30,850 nucleotides of DNA. Origin: a virus. The DNA lies in the IMG/VR virus record IMGVR_UViG_3300043427_000815, positions 1-30,850 of that record; one strand, written 5' to 3'. The notes beneath the pieces were generated by a model. It saw only the letters and a program-made list of their open reading frames with translations. It searched no databases and was not told where the DNA came from. The position numbers were made by a program, and so were the translations under genes. Positions 16,353-30,804 of this stretch are shown here, one piece after another (the first letter of the stretch is position 1; each line of letters begins with the position of its first letter).

Positions 16353-17693
16353 TCAGTACAAGCGGATGCCCGTGCTCCGTCCCGCGTTCGCCTGCAATGG
16401 GTTGAACTCACGCCACACCACATACCCCAAGGCATCAACCATGTGATCGTGCCCCGCCTCCTTGTCCGGCTCGCCCTTCTCCGTCCAGCTCTGCAGCTCC
16501 AAGCACTCGATCAACTTCGGGCAGCCCTGGCCCACCGTCAGCCTTACCTGCCCTTTCCCGTTTTCCAACAGAGCTTGAACAGCAGCCACCCGATCACGAA
16601 CGGCAGGATTAGACCGACCGGACTGGTTGCTAAAGCCATAGGACTCAAGGATTTGAATATCTGTTCTTGAGGCGTTTGTGGAGCGATTGCCGCCCGAGGC
16701 GTCAGGATATACATAGATACGGTGATCGGGATAACGGCGCTTGATCTCTTGAGCCAGGGCGTCGGTGTCATGGGCTCCACTGATCTCATCAACGACAGCC
16801 AGCCTGTCGCCACTCCGCACCGTAACCACGGCGGACATGTTGCCCACGTTGAAGTCCACGCCAATTCGCAAAGGTTCACGGGAGAAATCGGCAAGGGTCG
16901 CCACCACATGCTTAGCCCTGTCGAACCTGTCGTAAACCTGTCCCGTATTGAGATTGACCCACTGGCCTTCGAGGTACGACTTGATTAACTGCGGCGGGTA
17001 GTTCGCCATCAGGCTGTCCACAAACCCATCAGGCAAAAATGGGTTATCCATCGTGCGGGCACGGATCAGCGCGGTATCTTCCCCGGCATTACGGTCAAAC
17101 GTGTCAAACGCCCAGCCATAACCCTCAGGCGTCGTAGCGGCGTAAAACTGCTGCACGTTGCCAGCACGAAGACGGGCAAGGGCCATCCGTGTTGCCTGCT
17201 CTGCTACGCGCTTGTTCGCCGTATCCGCCTCATCGAATCCAATGGCGCAAAGGTTCTGACCACGAATCCGGTTCCACGTTTCCATCGTCCTCAGAAGGAT
17301 GGTGTGACTGCCCTCCGCGAAATGGAGCTGATATTCCGGCAACGGGCTGACGCGGAAGTCAAACGGGATTTCCCATTCCTCTAATAGGTCATCCATCGTG
17401 CGCTGCAGGATGTCGCGCAGCATCGGGGCGACCGGCTCAAACAGGGCGGACACGTAGCCGATGTTGAGGGCTGCCATATGAACAGCCTTGGCAACGAGGC
17501 CATGGGTCTTGCCAGCACCGAACCCGCAGACAAGGGCAAGCTTGCGATGATCCGTGTCATCACAGAAGGCGAGCTGATGCGGCAAGAGCGTTTGCCGAAT
17601 GCGAGCTAGGGCTTCGGTAGCGGGCGGGCCAGTGAGCTGAGCAGTTGGCGGTTCAAGGAGATTGCCACCAGGCGCGTTAGCCAACAGGCTCAT
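16353..17693 (-). CDS. terL: Terminase large subunit
   Basis: This 446-residue protein is a complete two-domain terminase. The ATPase domain has a Walker A-like GFGAGKT (57-63), Walker B CAIGFDEAD (149-157, D154/E155) and a coupling motif AATTP (185-189). The RNase H-like nuclease domain has GVDFNVG (D280), YPDASG (D331) and HDHMVDALGY (D420), the acidic triad. It packages DNA through the portal and cuts concatemers. Its ATG overlaps the terS stop by four bases. The length is on the short side of normal but all motifs are intact. The packaging mode (cos or pac) cannot be told from the protein alone. Confidence 0.96.
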   Translation of the reverse strand: MSLLANAPGGNLLEPPTAQLTGPPATEALARIRQTLLPHQLAFCDDTDHRKLALVCGFGAGKTHGLVAKAVHMAALNIGYVSALFEPVAPMLRDILQRTMDDLLEEWEIPFDFRVSPLPEYQLHFAEGSHTILLRTMETWNRIRGQNLCAIGFDEADTANKRVAEQATRMALARLRAGNVQQFYAATTPEGYGWAFDTFDRNAGEDTALIRARTMDNPFLPDGFVDSLMANYPPQLIKSYLEGQWVNLNTGQVYDRFDRAKHVVATLADFSREPLRIGVDFNVGNMSAVVTVRSGDRLAVVDEISGAHDTDALAQEIKRRYPDHRIYVYPDASGGNRSTNASRTDIQILESYGFSNQSGRSNPAVRDRVAAVQALLENGKGQVRLTVGQGCPKLIECLELQSWTEKGEPDKEAGHDHMVDALGYVVWREFNPLQANAGRSTGIRLY

Positions 17694-18007
17694 AAATCAA
17701 AGCCGATGAGCTTGGCTTGAAGTTGAACGGCGTTGACGGCTACTTGCGTTTGGCCGCGTTTATAAGCCGATTGTTCGTAGGTACGAAGTCTGCCGAGGGC
17801 TTCAGCGAGCCAAGCAGGTCGCGCCATATCTGCATCTTGTTCAAGGCGAATACGAGCGCGTTGAATGTATTCATCTGTTTGACGATTTGATAGGCCCCAT
17901 TGGTTAGCGCCGAATTGAACAATTTGGCCACGTGATTGTCCTTCGGTCAAAAGACCGTAAATGGTGTCAACACGGAAGTTGACTTCAGCGGCGGTAGAAC
18001 GCGCCAA
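17690..18007 (-). CDS. terS: Terminase small subunit
   Basis: This 105-residue protein has an N-terminal helix-turn-helix-like segment (FRVDTIYGLLTEGQSRGQIVQFGANQWGLSNRQTDEYIQRAR). A helical oligomerisation region follows (LAEALGRLRTYEQSAYKRGQTQVAVNAVQLQAKLIGFDL). Its place just upstream of terL, with an ATGA overlap, and its size fit a small terminase, which recognises the packaging site and loads the large subunit. The start is TTG at 18005-18007 (LARSTAAE, read as Met); no ATG lies nearby in frame and no clear ribosome site is seen. The 10-bp repeat array lies 144 bases upstream and is a candidate target. Confidence 0.85.
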   Translation of the reverse strand: MARSTAAEVNFRVDTIYGLLTEGQSRGQIVQFGANQWGLSNRQTDEYIQRARIRLEQDADMARPAWLAEALGRLRTYEQSAYKRGQTQVAVNAVQLQAKLIGFDL

Positions 18008-18150
18008 GTTTGCGGGAAAAGCGATGCAAACAGGATAAACCCAAAAGATGCATTCGGTGCGAGTGAGACAGATTTGAGACGCGGAGGAGACCCAAGCTTT
18101 GCCGAAATCGCGTGTTGCAGGGGCTTGCCAGCCAAAAAAATCAGACTAAG

Positions 18151-18240
18151 GTTGACCCGCAGATTTCCGGGATTTGCCGGAGATTGCCGTAATCTTCCGA
18201 GATTTGCCGCAGATTTCCGGAATTTGCCGGACTGTGCCCC
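18151..18240. repeat. Nine helically phased 10-bp repeats in the late/early divergence region
   Basis: The gene-free 266 bases between terS (minus) and the initiator-like gene (plus) contain nine consecutive 10-base units starting at 18151, 18161 and so on to 18231. The loose consensus is RATTTGCCGG. CC occupies positions 7-8 in all nine units and CCG positions 7-9 in eight. Within the array, a 24-bp segment at 18158-18181 recurs at 18208-18231 (50 bp apart) with one mismatch. A seven-base A-tract lies just before (18134-18140). The period equals one helical turn and is not a multiple of three, so it is not a protein repeat. It probably binds several protein copies on one DNA face: origin iterons, a terminase site or an operator. 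Confidence 0.85.
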
Positions 18241-18273
18241 AAACCCATTGCAGCGACTGACTTTTCAAAACCG

Positions 18274-18996
18274 ATGCCTAAACGCCTTGAGCTTCGCTTA
18301 CCCGACGAGGTGATTGAAGATGTGCTTAGACACAAGCCCAGAACCCTGTCCCTGCCTCAGTTTTGCCTGTTTTTGATTGAAATAGGGGTTGACAGGGAGG
18401 CTAAGCTACCCGCGTACCGTGTCGGTGCGGGAAACACAAGTAACCTCTCAACGGAGCAGGTGAAAGTTACGCCTGCATCACCGGAACCTTCAGACGAATC
18501 AGAAGATTCAGGCTTGCAGGCTCTTGGCTGTTCTGCTCCTGAAGATTTTGGTTTTGAACTAACTAATTTCTTGGGGGATGGTGTCGGGAGGGAGTCTGAG
18601 GGAACCCCTAGGAAGGCCCCTTCTTTAGTTGTGCCGCAGGCAAGAAAACCTGTGGAAAAACGCCATCGGACGGAGTACGCCCCTGAGTTTCAAAAATGGT
18701 GGAAGCTGTATCAGTCGTCTCCTTCTAGGGCGTCAAACCAGAGCAAGCCACGAGCGTATGAGGAATGGAAGGTGGCAAAAGGTGGCCATGGCGCCGAGTG
18801 TTTGCTGTCCGCCCTTGAACGGAACATCAACGATCAGAAAGCAAATTTGAAATCAGGCAACTTCTGTTCCCCCTTGCCCGATGCCTTCCGTTGGATCCGT
18901 GACGGGCGTTATGAGGTTTGGCTTGAGGAGCACAAGGTCCAAGCTGCCGGGCGTCAATGGAGCGCTGAGCTGGGCTGCTGGATTGAAAACGACTGA
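18274..18996 (+). CDS. Putative replication initiator / helicase-loader type protein
   Basis: In this 240-residue protein residues 1-45 (PKRLELRLPDEVIEDVLRHKPRTLSLPQF) look like a small DNA-binding or ribbon-helix-helix-type domain. Residues 50-130 are Ser/Pro/Glu-rich and probably disordered. Residues 138-216 carry a signature common at the C-terminus of phage replication proteins of the O/DnaA-like or DnaD-like kind: F-x-x-W-W-x-x-Y, W165, LLSALERN and then a P-x-P..W-I-R-x-G-R-Y-E-V-W ending. It is the first gene of the rightward arm, directly beside the phased repeats, as expected for an initiator with its origin. The exact family is not certain. Confidence 0.6.
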   Translation: MPKRLELRLPDEVIEDVLRHKPRTLSLPQFCLFLIEIGVDREAKLPAYRVGAGNTSNLSTEQVKVTPASPEPSDESEDSGLQALGCSAPEDFGFELTNFLGDGVGRESEGTPRKAPSLVVPQARKPVEKRHRTEYAPEFQKWWKLYQSSPSRASNQSKPRAYEEWKVAKGGHGAECLLSALERNINDQKANLKSGNFCSPLPDAFRWIRDGRYEVWLEEHKVQAAGRQWSAELGCWIEND

Positions 18997-19001
18997 TCGC
19001 C

Positions 19002-19289
19002 ATGAAACTGTATTCACCAGAGGCCAAGGGCAAATACGTGTGGCAGGTGGCTGACTCGAAGACCAAACAGGTCAGCTACAGCGTCACTACGACCCGTACG
19101 GCCCCGCCAGACGCCTGCTATGGGCATCCCATCGGCAAATACGACGACGAGGGCCTGTACCTGACCTTCTGCCCGAACGTGGGCGCAGATGACCCCAAAA
19201 GCCCGCTTGCCGCTCGCTACGTGATCCACCCGCTTGCCAGGGCTGATCAGGAGAGATCCCAACGGGAGAGGCTGTGGAGGGAAATTTGA
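19002..19289 (+). CDS. Small hypothetical early protein
   Basis: This 95-residue protein reads KLYSPEAKGKYVWQVADSKTKQVSYSVTTTRTAPPDACYGHPIGKYDDEGLYLTF. Beta strands come first and a charged helix ends it (ARADQERSQRERLWREI). It lies five bases after the initiator-like gene and is probably co-transcribed. Two cysteines (DACYGH, TFCPN) are too few for a clear metal site. I do not recognise a family. A longer frame overlapping its end is a non-native extension of the next gene. Confidence 0.65.
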   Translation: MKLYSPEAKGKYVWQVADSKTKQVSYSVTTTRTAPPDACYGHPIGKYDDEGLYLTFCPNVGADDPKSPLAARYVIHPLARADQERSQRERLWREI

Positions 19290-25210: not shown

Positions 25211-25499
25211 CACTGCCTTCACCGCGAAATTCCGTATTCAGGAGAATCGCAACCGTAAAAACGACAAATCCCCCGAGGAGAACATCGTCGTTGATTTCAC
25301 CGCTGAACAGGCGATGGCTGCAGCGAATTACCTGATGACCATGGCTGAAAATGCCGAGGCCAATGGCACCAAGATTCGCATTTACACCGGCAAAGATCAG
25401 TACACCGAAGAAACCGGTTTTTCCCTTTGGGGTGGGAAATGGGGCAATAAAGGCCTTTTCTCTCCCATGAAACTCGAAACCCCTTCCGCCTCCTTCTGA
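25203..25499 (+). CDS. Small hypothetical early protein
   Basis: This 98-residue protein reads MADTAFTAKFRIQENRNRKND, then NIVVDFTAEQAMAAANYLMTMAENAEANGTKIRIYTGKDQY, and ends ETGFSLWGGKWGNKGLFSPMKLETPSASF. It is a compact alpha/beta protein with a Gly/Trp-rich C-terminal part. It resembles small conserved proteins found beside recombination genes in phages, but I cannot name the family. It overlaps the ribbon-helix-helix gene by eight bases and ends with a TGATG junction to the next gene, so it belongs to the same operon as the annealing protein. Confidence 0.65.
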   Translation: MADTAFTAKFRIQENRNRKNDKSPEENIVVDFTAEQAMAAANYLMTMAENAEANGTKIRIYTGKDQYTEETGFSLWGGKWGNKGLFSPMKLETPSASF

Positions 25500-25846
25500 T
25501 GTCCACCATGATTATCCTCACTGATTCCCAGATCGTTGAGCTGAACAATCGCATCGGGCAAATTCAACGCCTGATCGAAAGCGCCCAAGTCATTAAGGCT
25601 GGTGGCTCACCTCAGCCCGCTGCCGTTACCGAAGCCAAGCCCGCAGGCATCAAGGCAACTGTTACTCGCCGTCGTCGTCGCGCTTCTTTGAGCGAGGCCA
25701 AGGTGGTTGAAATCAAGCAGCGCCTAGCTAGTGGCACGGAATCGGCTGCAAAAATCGCCAAGTCATTTGGCGTTCACGTCAGCACGGTCAACAACATCAA
25801 GTACGGGAAAAACTGGTCACACATCAAGGTGCCAGCTAATTCCTGA
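25499..25846 (+). CDS. Helix-turn-helix protein with coiled-coil start
   Basis: This 115-residue protein has an N-terminal helix (IVELNNRIGQIQRLIESAQVIK), an Ala/Pro linker and an arginine run (TRRRRRASLSE). The C-terminal helix-turn-helix (SEAKVVEIKQRLASGTESAAKIAKSFGVHVSTVNNIKYGKNWSHIKV) ends in I-K-x-G-x-N-W, a motif shared with the protein at 26945. The coiled coil may dimerise it. It is a probable sequence-specific DNA-binding regulator at the end of the recombination operon. Its stop is convergent with, and overlaps by 11 bases, the end of a minus-strand gene. Confidence 0.75.
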   Translation: MSTMIILTDSQIVELNNRIGQIQRLIESAQVIKAGGSPQPAAVTEAKPAGIKATVTRRRRRASLSEAKVVEIKQRLASGTESAAKIAKSFGVHVSTVNNIKYGKNWSHIKVPANS

Positions 25847-26765: not shown

Positions 26766-26945
26766 ATGAATCAACTTCGCCGCTTCTACTTCACCATCCC
26801 ATCTTCAGGAGCTTATGACTGGGTAGTTGCCAGCAGCTTTGAAGACGCCAAGATCGCAGCCTTCGAAGAATGGGCGCCGCTCTACAACGAAATCGAATGG
26901 ATCACGCCCACCACTCACTCTGAAGTCAAACTCCCCGCGATCTAG
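26766..26945 (+). CDS. Small hypothetical protein
   Basis: This 59-residue protein begins MNQLRRFYFTIPSSGAYDWVVASSFEDAKIAAFEEW and ends THSEVKLPAI. It is a compact beta-alpha-beta-like pattern (FYFTIPSS...WVVASSFEDAKIAAF) seen in many small phage proteins in which a surface-exposed helix follows a strand pair. Its TAG overlaps the GTG of the next gene by one base. The function is unknown. Confidence 0.6.
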   Translation: MNQLRRFYFTIPSSGAYDWVVASSFEDAKIAAFEEWAPLYNEIEWITPTTHSEVKLPAI

Positions 26946-27298
26946 TGGCCGCCTCAAAAAAGGTTCTCACCGAGAGCAACGTGGTTGAAATTCTTCAATC
27001 CGTCGAAACCAACTCACAACTAGCCGCACGCTTTGGCGTCAGCCGTCAGGCCATTTCACAGATCCGTAATGGCACCAACTGGGTCAATGTGGCGCCAGAA
27101 CTTCCACGAATCCCCATCCGTGTCAAAGAATCAGTCCGCAAGGATTACTTGGCCAAGCGACCCAACTGCCAAAACTGCCTCGAATGGAATGGCCATGAAT
27201 GTTCCTACGGGTTCCCGGAGGCCATAGATGAACCATTTTTTGCCGTTGGATGCGACCTCTACAGAGGAAATCAGGGCGGTCCTAGATCAATGCCTTGA
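26945..27298 (+). CDS. Helix-turn-helix protein with a four-cysteine GFPEA module
   Basis: This 117-residue protein starts with GTG at 26945. Residues 7-50 form a helix-turn-helix (LTESNVVEILQSVETNSQLAARFGVSRQAISQIRNGTNW) closely related in spacing to the protein at 25499. Residues 75-106 hold C75-x2-C78, C86-S-x-G-F-P-E-A (86-93) and C103-x-L-Y. This combination also occurs at the end of the protein at 28094. The module looks like a small metal-binding (probably zinc) finger. The fusion suggests a DNA-binding regulator. It overlaps the next gene by 71 bases. Confidence 0.72.
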   Translation: MAASKKVLTESNVVEILQSVETNSQLAARFGVSRQAISQIRNGTNWVNVAPELPRIPIRVKESVRKDYLAKRPNCQNCLEWNGHECSYGFPEAIDEPFFAVGCDLYRGNQGGPRSMP

Positions 27299-29202: not shown

Positions 29203-29748
29203 TTAGGTCGAAACGCCAGGTCTCGCCTTAAATGTTTCCCAAGAAGGCATTACGGTTCTGTTGTTGTTGTAATGGCCCTTGGCGGAATAGCTGTGTTCCA
29301 CCGTTTCGGACATCATGAACACGACGATCTGACCGATTAGCATTCCAGGCCAAATCGGAAGCCTGTGTTTTTGCCGAACATTTTTGATCTCAAGGGTCAA
29401 CACGGAGCCATTGAATCCAGGGTCAATCCAACCCGCGAGCATATGCTGATAGCCCTGCCTTGCCCGGCTTGACTTCAATACAAATTGACCAGCAACGTCA
29501 TCGGTGAAATTAAATATCTCCTGAGTCTCAGCAAGAATAAATTCGCCAGGAGAAAGCCAATACGGATCAGCTTGAGTGTGAGTGGCGATGCTATGCCTAA
29601 TAAACTCAGGAGTTTCAGCCACTTCAATCATGATGTTGTCGCCCAGTGCCACGTCGTAGCTAGCAGGGTTCAAACGCTCAGGATCAAACGGATGAATCAG
29701 TGCATGGCTTTGGCACAAGGCGCGAATCTCGTGATCAGACAGCAGCAT
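29203..29748 (-). CDS. dcd: dCTP deaminase / dUTPase family protein
   Basis: This 181-residue protein has LNPASYDVALGD, then LAETQEIF, LKSSRARQGY, GWIDPGFNGSVLTLEIKN and GMLIGQIVVF. These are the conserved blocks of the dCTP deaminase (Dcd)/dUTPase trimer fold, with E120 in T-L-E-I-K-N as the probable catalytic Glu. The enzyme would convert dCTP to dUTP or dUTP to dUMP, feeding dTTP synthesis during phage replication. It lies six bases after the lysin gene on the same strand and before a terminator. The subgroup (deaminase or dUTPase) cannot be told from these motifs alone. Confidence 0.88.
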   Translation of the reverse strand: MLLSDHEIRALCQSHALIHPFDPERLNPASYDVALGDNIMIEVAETPEFIRHSIATHTQADPYWLSPGEFILAETQEIFNFTDDVAGQFVLKSSRARQGYQHMLAGWIDPGFNGSVLTLEIKNVRQKHRLPIWPGMLIGQIVVFMMSETVEHSYSAKGHYNNNRTVMPSWETFKARPGVST

Positions 29749-29754
29749 CGAAGC

Positions 29755-30804
29755 TCAATAATTCCAGACCACGGTAGGTCGTCCAGGTCTGATTCCGCTA
29801 TGGATGAAACCTTTTGGCGCACCCTTGCCAGTGCTGTAAGACCAGTTGGCTAAGCACCAATTCTGAAGCGTGTAAATGTCAACGCCTTCGATGTACCAAT
29901 CAACGGCACCCGTATCCGGCGCATCGTATAAATGCTCAGATCGCGCCGATCCTCCAATAGCAGCATTGACCTTAGGCGGACGATAACCGCTCGTAATTAC
30001 AACAGGCTTATTACCAAATGCCTTACGCGCACGTTCAAGGAATTGACACAACACCATTGCCGTGTCGCATTGATATTGATGCTTAAATTTGCGCTCCTCA
30101 AGGTTTAACGCCAGCTCGCCATATTTAATGTTTGGCGTCACATTGAAACTAAACGGTTTATCAGGCGTAAAGGTCACATCCTTAGTGACAGGTTTACTGC
30201 CAGCCAAAAACAGATCGAGTTCATCACGGCGGCGACGAATCAAGCCCTCAAGAATCTCACCGCCGCCCTTGTTCCACCTAGGCAGCTCCTCCATCGCCAC
30301 CTTCTGAGGATTTTCCCCATTGTTCAGCCGCTTACGCAACGTGCTATCAAGCAGCGCACCAACGCCAACATTGAAGGCAAAACTGATCAACGCGCAACGC
30401 TGGTTATTCGTCAGCGGCACCCTGATTTGATTGTCAACAGCTTTGGCAAAGCGTTCAACATCAGATGCCAGCAACGCATCAGCATCGGCTTGGGTAATCT
30501 TCATCCCTACCGATACATTCGGCCCTGTATGGCCATAGCCCACGGTCGGCACACCAGCAGGGCACACATAACCCTCAAGCCGTAACCCCTCCCACTTCTT
30601 GATGATGTCCAGAGCAGGTTTCAAATCGTTTTCAGCCTGTTTGCCCGATTGACTCCAGACCTTGAACCATTCTTGGTCACGATCCAGCACGGAATCATCT
30701 GCAGCACAAATCGCCGCCTCAAGTAAATGCAACGCCGCCATCTGATGCGGAAGCTGCTTGTAATACTTGAAAAGATCAATCAGGCGAACTGGCGCTTTCG
30801 TCAT
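29755..30804 (-). CDS. Two-domain endolysin: GH24 lysozyme plus M15 peptidase
   Basis: In this 349-residue protein residues 1-58 form a helical lead (LIDLFKYYKQLPHQMAALHLLEAAI). Residues 60-200 are a T4-like (GH24) lysozyme: KKWEGLRLEGY with catalytic E72, PTVGYGHTG (87-94), TNNQRCALISFAFNVGVGAL. Residues 205-349 are an M15-type peptidase: SGYRPPKVNAAIGG, SEH (H291), GAVDW (D302) and GFIH (H335), the three zinc ligands. The enzyme would cut both sugar backbone and peptide links. There is no signal peptide or SAR segment, so it needs a holin or leaky membrane. The helical lead is known from other phage lysins of this layout, and its role is unclear. Confidence 0.92.
   Translation of the reverse strand: MTKAPVRLIDLFKYYKQLPHQMAALHLLEAAICAADDSVLDRDQEWFKVWSQSGKQAENDLKPALDIIKKWEGLRLEGYVCPAGVPTVGYGHTGPNVSVGMKITQADADALLASDVERFAKAVDNQIRVPLTNNQRCALISFAFNVGVGALLDSTLRKRLNNGENPQKVAMEELPRWNKGGGEILEGLIRRRRDELDLFLAGSKPVTKDVTFTPDKPFSFNVTPNIKYGELALNLEERKFKHQYQCDTAMVLCQFLERARKAFGNKPVVITSGYRPPKVNAAIGGSARSEHLYDAPDTGAVDWYIEGVDIYTLQNWCLANWSYSTGKGAPKGFIHSGIRPGRPTVVWNY

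Follow-up and report, generated by a model that had tools for sequence, protein, structure and literature searches.

A 10-bp repeat array in a cyanophage-like virus as a probable tandem site for a replication initiator with a predicted ribbon-helix-helix domain

Nine tandem 10-bp repeats in a virus record of 30,850 bases (the window hereafter, that is, the whole stretch of DNA analysed) probably constitute a row of sites for the phage's own initiator, encoded at 18274–18996, which would read them through a predicted N-terminal ribbon-helix-helix (RHH) domain. The best reading of their role is that of an origin-recognition and/or autoregulatory site placed before the initiator's own gene. We infer the binding from covariation of the repeat unit with this domain among related phages, and the origin function from homology. 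A preliminary description of the same DNA had proposed that the array consists of iterons for the adjacent initiator-like protein, is a packaging site bound by TerS, or acts as a switch operator; its interpretation is partly supported by our results, with the covariation speaking for the iterons.

Results

The array sits between a TerS-like/TerL gene pair and the divergent gene 18274–18996. To its left, on the minus strand, are the TerS-like gene (17690–18007; 105 aa, TTG start, phrog_34910, a family without functional annotation), assigned by position and size only and directly upstream of TerL, the gene for the terminase large subunit, TerL (16353–17693), and portal and head-morphogenesis genes. 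The plus-strand early arm, to the right of the array, starts with the 240-aa gene 18274–18996 and continues with ORFs without matches, an exonuclease-like gene, a RusA-like resolvase, and a Sak-like annealing protein. Because TerL is closest, among named phages, to that of Synechococcus phages S-H1 and KBS-S-2A and of Prochlorococcus phages (57%–58% identity), the window appears to be a fragment of a cyanophage-like siphovirus. The region 17400–19200 showed no DNA similarity to named phages, even distant, and a search of bacterial genomes for the pattern gave 47 matches, none confirmed. Among the ORFs scanned in the window, none matched a polymerase or helicase, which fits a phage that would recruit the host replisome, and none resembled ParM, the type II partition ATPase. 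Two early-arm ORFs (25499–25846 and 26945–27298) have short matches to HNH endonuclease families (E 7.7e-7 and 1.3e-5, respectively) and are possible homing-endonuclease relatives. At the far end (29203–30804, minus strand), a dCTP-deaminase-like gene and a lysozyme/peptidase M15 fusion lie on the strand opposite to the early arm.

The array itself (18151–18240, plus strand) comprises nine units of the approximate form (A/G)(G/A)ATTTGCCG, and the features first noticed in it are confirmed: CC occupies unit positions 7–8 in all nine units and CCG is found in eight (the last unit has CCC), a 24-bp block at 18157–18180 recurs with one mismatch at 18207–18230 on the same strand, and a seven-A tract (18134–18140, plus strand) stands beside the array, within the spacer of a promoter-like block. 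When 90-bp stretches were scored, the top lag-10 score of the entire window fell at 18152, and the lag-10 self-match of the array, 0.55, was reached by none of 2000 dinucleotide shuffles (mean 0.249, sd 0.052). Against a profile of the unit, a run of four consecutive units scored 44 at the array; elsewhere in the window, on either strand, no such run exceeded 12.3. The array also carries a 30-bp super-period (self-match 0.65 at lag 30; TRF period 30). A protein repeat as the source of the array is ruled out, as had been stated, since a 10-bp step is no multiple of three. The accompanying suggestion that the period equals one DNA turn, so that bound proteins would line up on one face, is sound over a few adjacent units, or where the DNA is wrapped or distorted. 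On straight DNA, with one B-DNA turn per about 10.5 bp, nine steps of exactly 10 bp accumulate an offset of nearly half a turn. As tandem direct repeats adjoining an initiator gene, the units have the arrangement of iterons, and we propose them as candidate tandem RHH-dimer sites (initiator iterons or operator).

The initiator gene (18274–18996, plus strand; 240 aa) encodes an N-terminal RHH-like domain, a variable linker, and a C-terminal replication-initiation domain. Residues 61–230 (18454–18963, plus strand) match phrog_270, "replication initiation protein" (E 4.3e-7), and the same match was obtained for all seven proteins scanned, namely that of the window and six from relatives found through TerS (E 4.3e-7 to 3.9e-12); by annotation, the C-terminal domain would be that of known phage initiation proteins. 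The linker (approximately 18450–18650 in the window) is highly variable among relatives in both length and sequence, and is serine-rich in some.

The N-terminus is predicted to be an RHH domain, with weak profile matches. Residues 1–41 (18274–18396, plus strand) contain the predicted base-contacting strand KRLELRLP, of which we take the alternate residues R4, E6, and R8 to be the contact positions, by analogy with Arc. AlphaFold2 modelled residues 1–47 (pLDDT 80.7) as an extended N-terminus with alternating residues and helices at 11–20 and 27–41, and DSSP assigned no strand in this monomer. Pfam RHH_5 was matched in 12 of 22 members (best E 0.0082; window E 0.15), in every case below the curated cut-off. 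A Foldseek search with the domain model gave no match at E < 3, and a PDB sequence search gave no credible match; AmrZ (3qoq) reached a TMq of 0.66 but a Foldseek E of 9.4 (rank 7 of 7), and was the best fold match at a second look (VIA Z 4.7, rmsd 4.3, 46 aligned). The full-length AlphaFold2 model of the initiator has a mean pLDDT of 59.5. The homologue in Prochlorococcus phage MED4-184 (L171:1855–2622, CPAG_00031), which one of its records calls a "replication initiation protein", carries an HTH_36 N-terminus in place of the RHH-like domain, so that the DNA-binding domain of the initiator appears to differ between lineages. In one relative (L121:1634–1807, minus strand), a 58-residue frame resembling a small RHH protein (MAIQLTAKASSSKTVMLQIDVDLYNRIK...), divergent from the initiator, lies upstream of the array.

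Absence of the repeat from related genomes had been named as grounds for dropping the proposed roles; the repeat was found to be present there, with its letters changed. A search with the 105-aa TerS-like protein yielded 80 loci that were kept (the TerS-side set), of which L009, L027, L032, and L054 (no initiator start) and L076 (no recognised start) were left out; the other 75 gave 49 distinct entries, 45 of these with at least 150 aa, and 36 relatives after dereplication at 95%. Across these 36, the position of the array is kept and so is the 10-bp step, less strictly in one class, while the letters of the unit vary. Four classes were distinguished, with the units CCG..ATTT (class A, 4 loci, lag-10 z 11.4), CCGCACATTT (class B, 6 loci, z 13.1), CCCGGgAATT (class C, 8 loci, z 13.4), and GC(A/T)AGC (class D, 18 loci, z 4.9), the last being the least regular, with lag 14 (z 5.3) as strong as lag 10. 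The TerS-like protein is 78%–99% identical to that of the window across the 80 loci; its variation is concentrated, by eye, in a short stretch at residues ~32–45 (..QW.....RQ..) that may be an HTH turn.

The unit covaries with the RHH domain and not with TerS. In Mantel tests on the 36 relatives (2000 permutations; array segments cut at class-specific distances and compared by 4-mer composition), array and RHH distances were correlated at r = 0.744, which no permutation reached, and at 0.743 given TerS. The correlation with the C-terminal domain (r = 0.192; 1 of 2000 permutations) vanished given the RHH domain (0.027), and that with TerS was 0.047 (266 of 2000). These values bear on the proposed packaging (pac) site bound by TerS rings. 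The array does adjoin a TerS-like gene, and its phasing would be in keeping with the wrapped-ring ("nucleosome") model that PMC9611059 discusses for TerS; against this, the array–TerS correlation given the RHH domain is 0.036, phages with 99%–100% identical TerS carry different arrays, and all 14 second-neighbourhood loci, in whose examined DNA no TerS was matched, carry class-type units (see below). The array thus neither follows TerS nor occurs only beside it, and a pac site, which these data contradict, is barely credible.

Exchanges between near-identical flanks point the same way. The pairs L026–L028 (identity of TerS/C-terminal domain/RHH domain 100/100/59), L006–L008 (100/99/57), L003–L006 (99/99/46), and L012–L014 (100/98/54) each have arrays of different class. 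Along the exchange pairs, identity drops at about −140 to −95 before the ATG and is at least 90% again by about +90 to +135, the end of the RHH domain; in the pair L051–L063, the divergent stretch is broader, starting near −165. Differences between the genomes of a pair are not confined to the cassette, since the linker (near +190 to +280) also diverges in four of the five pairs and further divergent stretches occur in the loci. Array and RHH domain seem to form a matched cassette exchanged between related phages.

Searches with the initiator led to a second neighbourhood, in which an annealing-protein gene, its product 45%–51% identical to the window's Sak-like protein, stands where the other loci have TerS. 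One such search, with 80 of 109 relatives kept and 18 loci read, added three loci to the statistics, and further searches gave 20 loci, of which 11 were used; set aside were L172, L175, L176, L178, L179, L181, and L185 (repeats of, or close to, loci already used) and L188 and L189 (N-terminus unresolved). All 14 loci used, a set that was not dereplicated and holds the near-copies L182/L183 (98 of 100 bases) and L186/L187 (97 of 100), have the annealing-protein gene, no TerS match in the locus DNA examined, and class-type units. In 10 of the 14, the strand V-K-T occurs with GGTNAC-type motifs; the other four (L182, L183, L184, and L190), which count as about three arrays because L182 and L183 are near-copies, have the strand x-[FY]-R, as in class D, with GCAAGC-type motifs. 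The TerS-side arrays nearest to these four share their strand type at a distance of 0.22–0.25, whereas the V-K-T arrays within the second neighbourhood are 0.60–0.66 away. Several second-neighbourhood loci have a weak 10-bp step or none at all, with lag-10 z of 2.6 to 4.5 in nine (L121, L123, L173, L174, L182, L183, L186, L187, and L191), 2.1 in L180, 1.9 in L170, 1.7 in L190, 1.6 in L177, and −0.1 in L184, yet the unit type still tracks the predicted DNA-reading strand.

With the 50 loci pooled, the array correlated with the strand triplet at r = 0.79 (0.693 given the helices) and with the helices at r = 0.541 (0.153 given the strand). All 50 loci carry the unit type that matches their strand class, in a table whose motifs were picked after looking, in which one CCG motif serves two classes and five of the ten V-K-T rows rest on a single occurrence. 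When loci more than 75% identical in the helices were removed, the nearest array agreed in strand class at only 34 of 50 loci, the misses being all eight R-E-Q, five of ten V-K-T, and three of ten R-[DE]-R loci.

The chief reservation about binding is that neighbouring stretches of DNA are inherited together. The array borders directly on the RHH-coding sequence, so that co-inheritance would by itself produce much of the covariation; both this covariation and the advantage of the strand over the helices may partly reflect linkage, the strand being encoded nearer to the array than the helices are. In the extreme, array and RHH segment would recombine as one block while some other factor reads the array. 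Their adjacency (0 to ~35 bp) means that a recombination tract tends to carry both, and the exchange pairs do differ elsewhere. However, linkage fails to explain why the units of an array all take on new letters at once and keep their step, which calls for a class-specific reader, or why TerS remains unchanged; moreover, the x-[FY]-R loci of the second neighbourhood share the TerS-side unit type although helix identity to the matching loci is only 0.32–0.43. We consider linkage without binding to be quite improbable.

Directly before the array lies a weak promoter-like block, TTGCCA-16-TAAGGT (18125–18152, plus strand), which fell below threshold in a consensus promoter/terminator scan of 17950–18350 that found nothing. 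The pattern TTGnnn-16/17/18-TAnnnT was our script's best site before the array in 31 of the 36 relatives, a count made with no shuffle control; L004, L028, L056, L063, and L078 were counted as missed, the best site being elsewhere or shifted, with a similar block visible by eye. The idea of a switch operator is compatible with an array located between this block and the initiator start codon, although the block itself does not pass the consensus scan. In its strictest form, the RHH domain would repress its own operon through the array, as an operator only, and replication would start elsewhere. Such a role is in keeping with the position of the array between promoter-like block and ATG in the 31 relatives and with known RHH repressors, which occupy arrays of repeats or bind cooperatively (omega and ParR, PMC5016525; CopG, PMC5703833). 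The weakness of the block argues against it, as does the fusion of the RHH-like domain to a replication-initiation C-terminus that a pure repressor would not need, and we judge it unlikely, if a serious contender.

Upstream of the promoter-like block, a phased GAGAC motif (18065–18091, plus strand) has copies at 18065, 18076, and 18087, in 11-bp steps; motifs of this type also occur in L123, L182, L190, and others, ~70–125 bp before the initiator start. The motif was at first favoured as a TerS site, its region correlating with TerS at r = 0.226 (1 of 2000 permutations) and with the TerS HTH at 0.08 (183 of 2000). This candidate was weakened by the presence of GAGAC/GTCTC upstream at 14 of 14 loci without a TerS match, because of which the motif may belong to the early promoter instead.

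The leader was also considered as an RNA element of the early transcript. That of the window folds better than its shuffles (z −2.50), as does that of L016, of the same class (z −2.64), whereas the other four leaders folded gave z of −1.46, −0.27, +0.50, and −1.57, and the property that the arrays have in common is a step near one DNA turn. With leader folding not kept across classes, we rejected an RNA element as highly improbable. GC skew, which had been suggested as a check, showed no sharp switch at the array in the window and is uninformative as evidence for an origin.

Discussion

The reading that we prefer, of tandem sites for the phage's own initiator, suggests a mechanism in which the N-terminal strands of two initiator subunits would come together as a ribbon, each ribbon reading a single 10-bp unit. 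Adjacent RHH dimers would then join laterally in one nucleoprotein assembly, from which the linker-tethered C-terminal domains would stay free to recruit the host replisome, a role like that of lambda O. Given the location of the array, after the promoter-like block and before the start codon, this assembly should repress the initiator gene as well, which would tie initiation to autoregulation; if the block is the early promoter, the array would be part of its leader and binding would repress the gene from there. Between related phages, the array and the RHH domain would be swapped as a matched cassette.

A further, rather doubtful possibility is that array and RHH strand form a plug-in specificity cassette that is under diversifying selection and swapped among co-circulating relatives, such that each initiator fires its own origin only. 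Were this the case, cross-use by co-infecting relatives or parasites would be avoided, and RHH recognition would become readable as a code in the series of strands and units (CCG..ATTT for R-[DE]-R, CCCG for R-E-Q, GC(A/T)AGC for x-[FY]-R, and GGTNAC for V-K-T). If our preferred reading holds, the RHH fold would join the DNA-reading modules of phage replication initiators, a candidate origin could be named for a group of cyanophage-related environmental phages, and RHH sequence recognition could be learned from a naturally occurring set of protein strands with their matching DNA units. It would also mean that initiator specificity is swapped on short recombination tracts, leaving most of the gene unchanged.

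Repeats near their own gene are likewise bound by lambda O and plasmid iteron initiators, another part of which recruits the replisome. These proteins use winged-helix domains and iterons of ~18–22 bp, in place of which we find an RHH-like domain and 10-bp units. The initiator homologue of MED4-184 and P-HS2 (CPAG_00031) resembles that of the window in its C-terminal part (29.8% identity over residues 135–227, E 2e-4), but differs in its HTH_36 N-terminus (E 1.4e-8) and in its neighbouring genes.

In the open-licence literature searched, as far as the relevant passages go, we found no description of an RHH-domain phage initiator or of an array/initiator cassette exchange, and those of PMC6669507, PMC6807378, and PMC5703833 describe no RHH initiator. 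RHH proteins on 10-bp repeats are already known from plasmid ParR/parC: according to PMC5016525, ParR dimers of pSK41 and R1 bind tandem 10-bp repeats upstream of the par operon and also repress its promoter. The array of the window is alike in presenting tandem 10-bp repeats to what would be RHH dimers; it differs in belonging to a phage and in that the RHH-like domain here precedes a replication-initiation domain in the same protein. For omega/ParB of pSM19035, RHH dimers on contiguous 7-bp heptads have been described (PMC9499535), the heptads overlapping promoters (PMC5016525), and the ParR and omega arrays overlap or flank promoters, with assemblies that wrap (PMC5016525, PMC9499535). CopG places four cooperative dimers on its own promoter (PMC5703833). 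The likeness to omega lies in RHH dimers on contiguous short repeats, and the difference in its 7-bp unit and its function, partition. To our knowledge, omega/ParB of pSM19035 has no replication domain. A further comparison is with the Bacillus phage-plasmid vB_BtS_B83, whose ORF31 has a predicted N-terminal RHH fold and adjoins iterons; its authors, in the passages concerned, read ORF31 as a ParG-like partition adaptor next to ParM, with a separate RepA-like gene as the initiator (PMC6669507). The phage described here shares with vB_BtS_B83 a gene with a predicted N-terminal RHH domain beside iteron-like repeats, and differs in that the RHH-like domain and the initiator are one protein. A probable RHH protein on helically stepped repeats, a kind already known, would here apparently serve as a phage replication initiator with exchangeable specificity.
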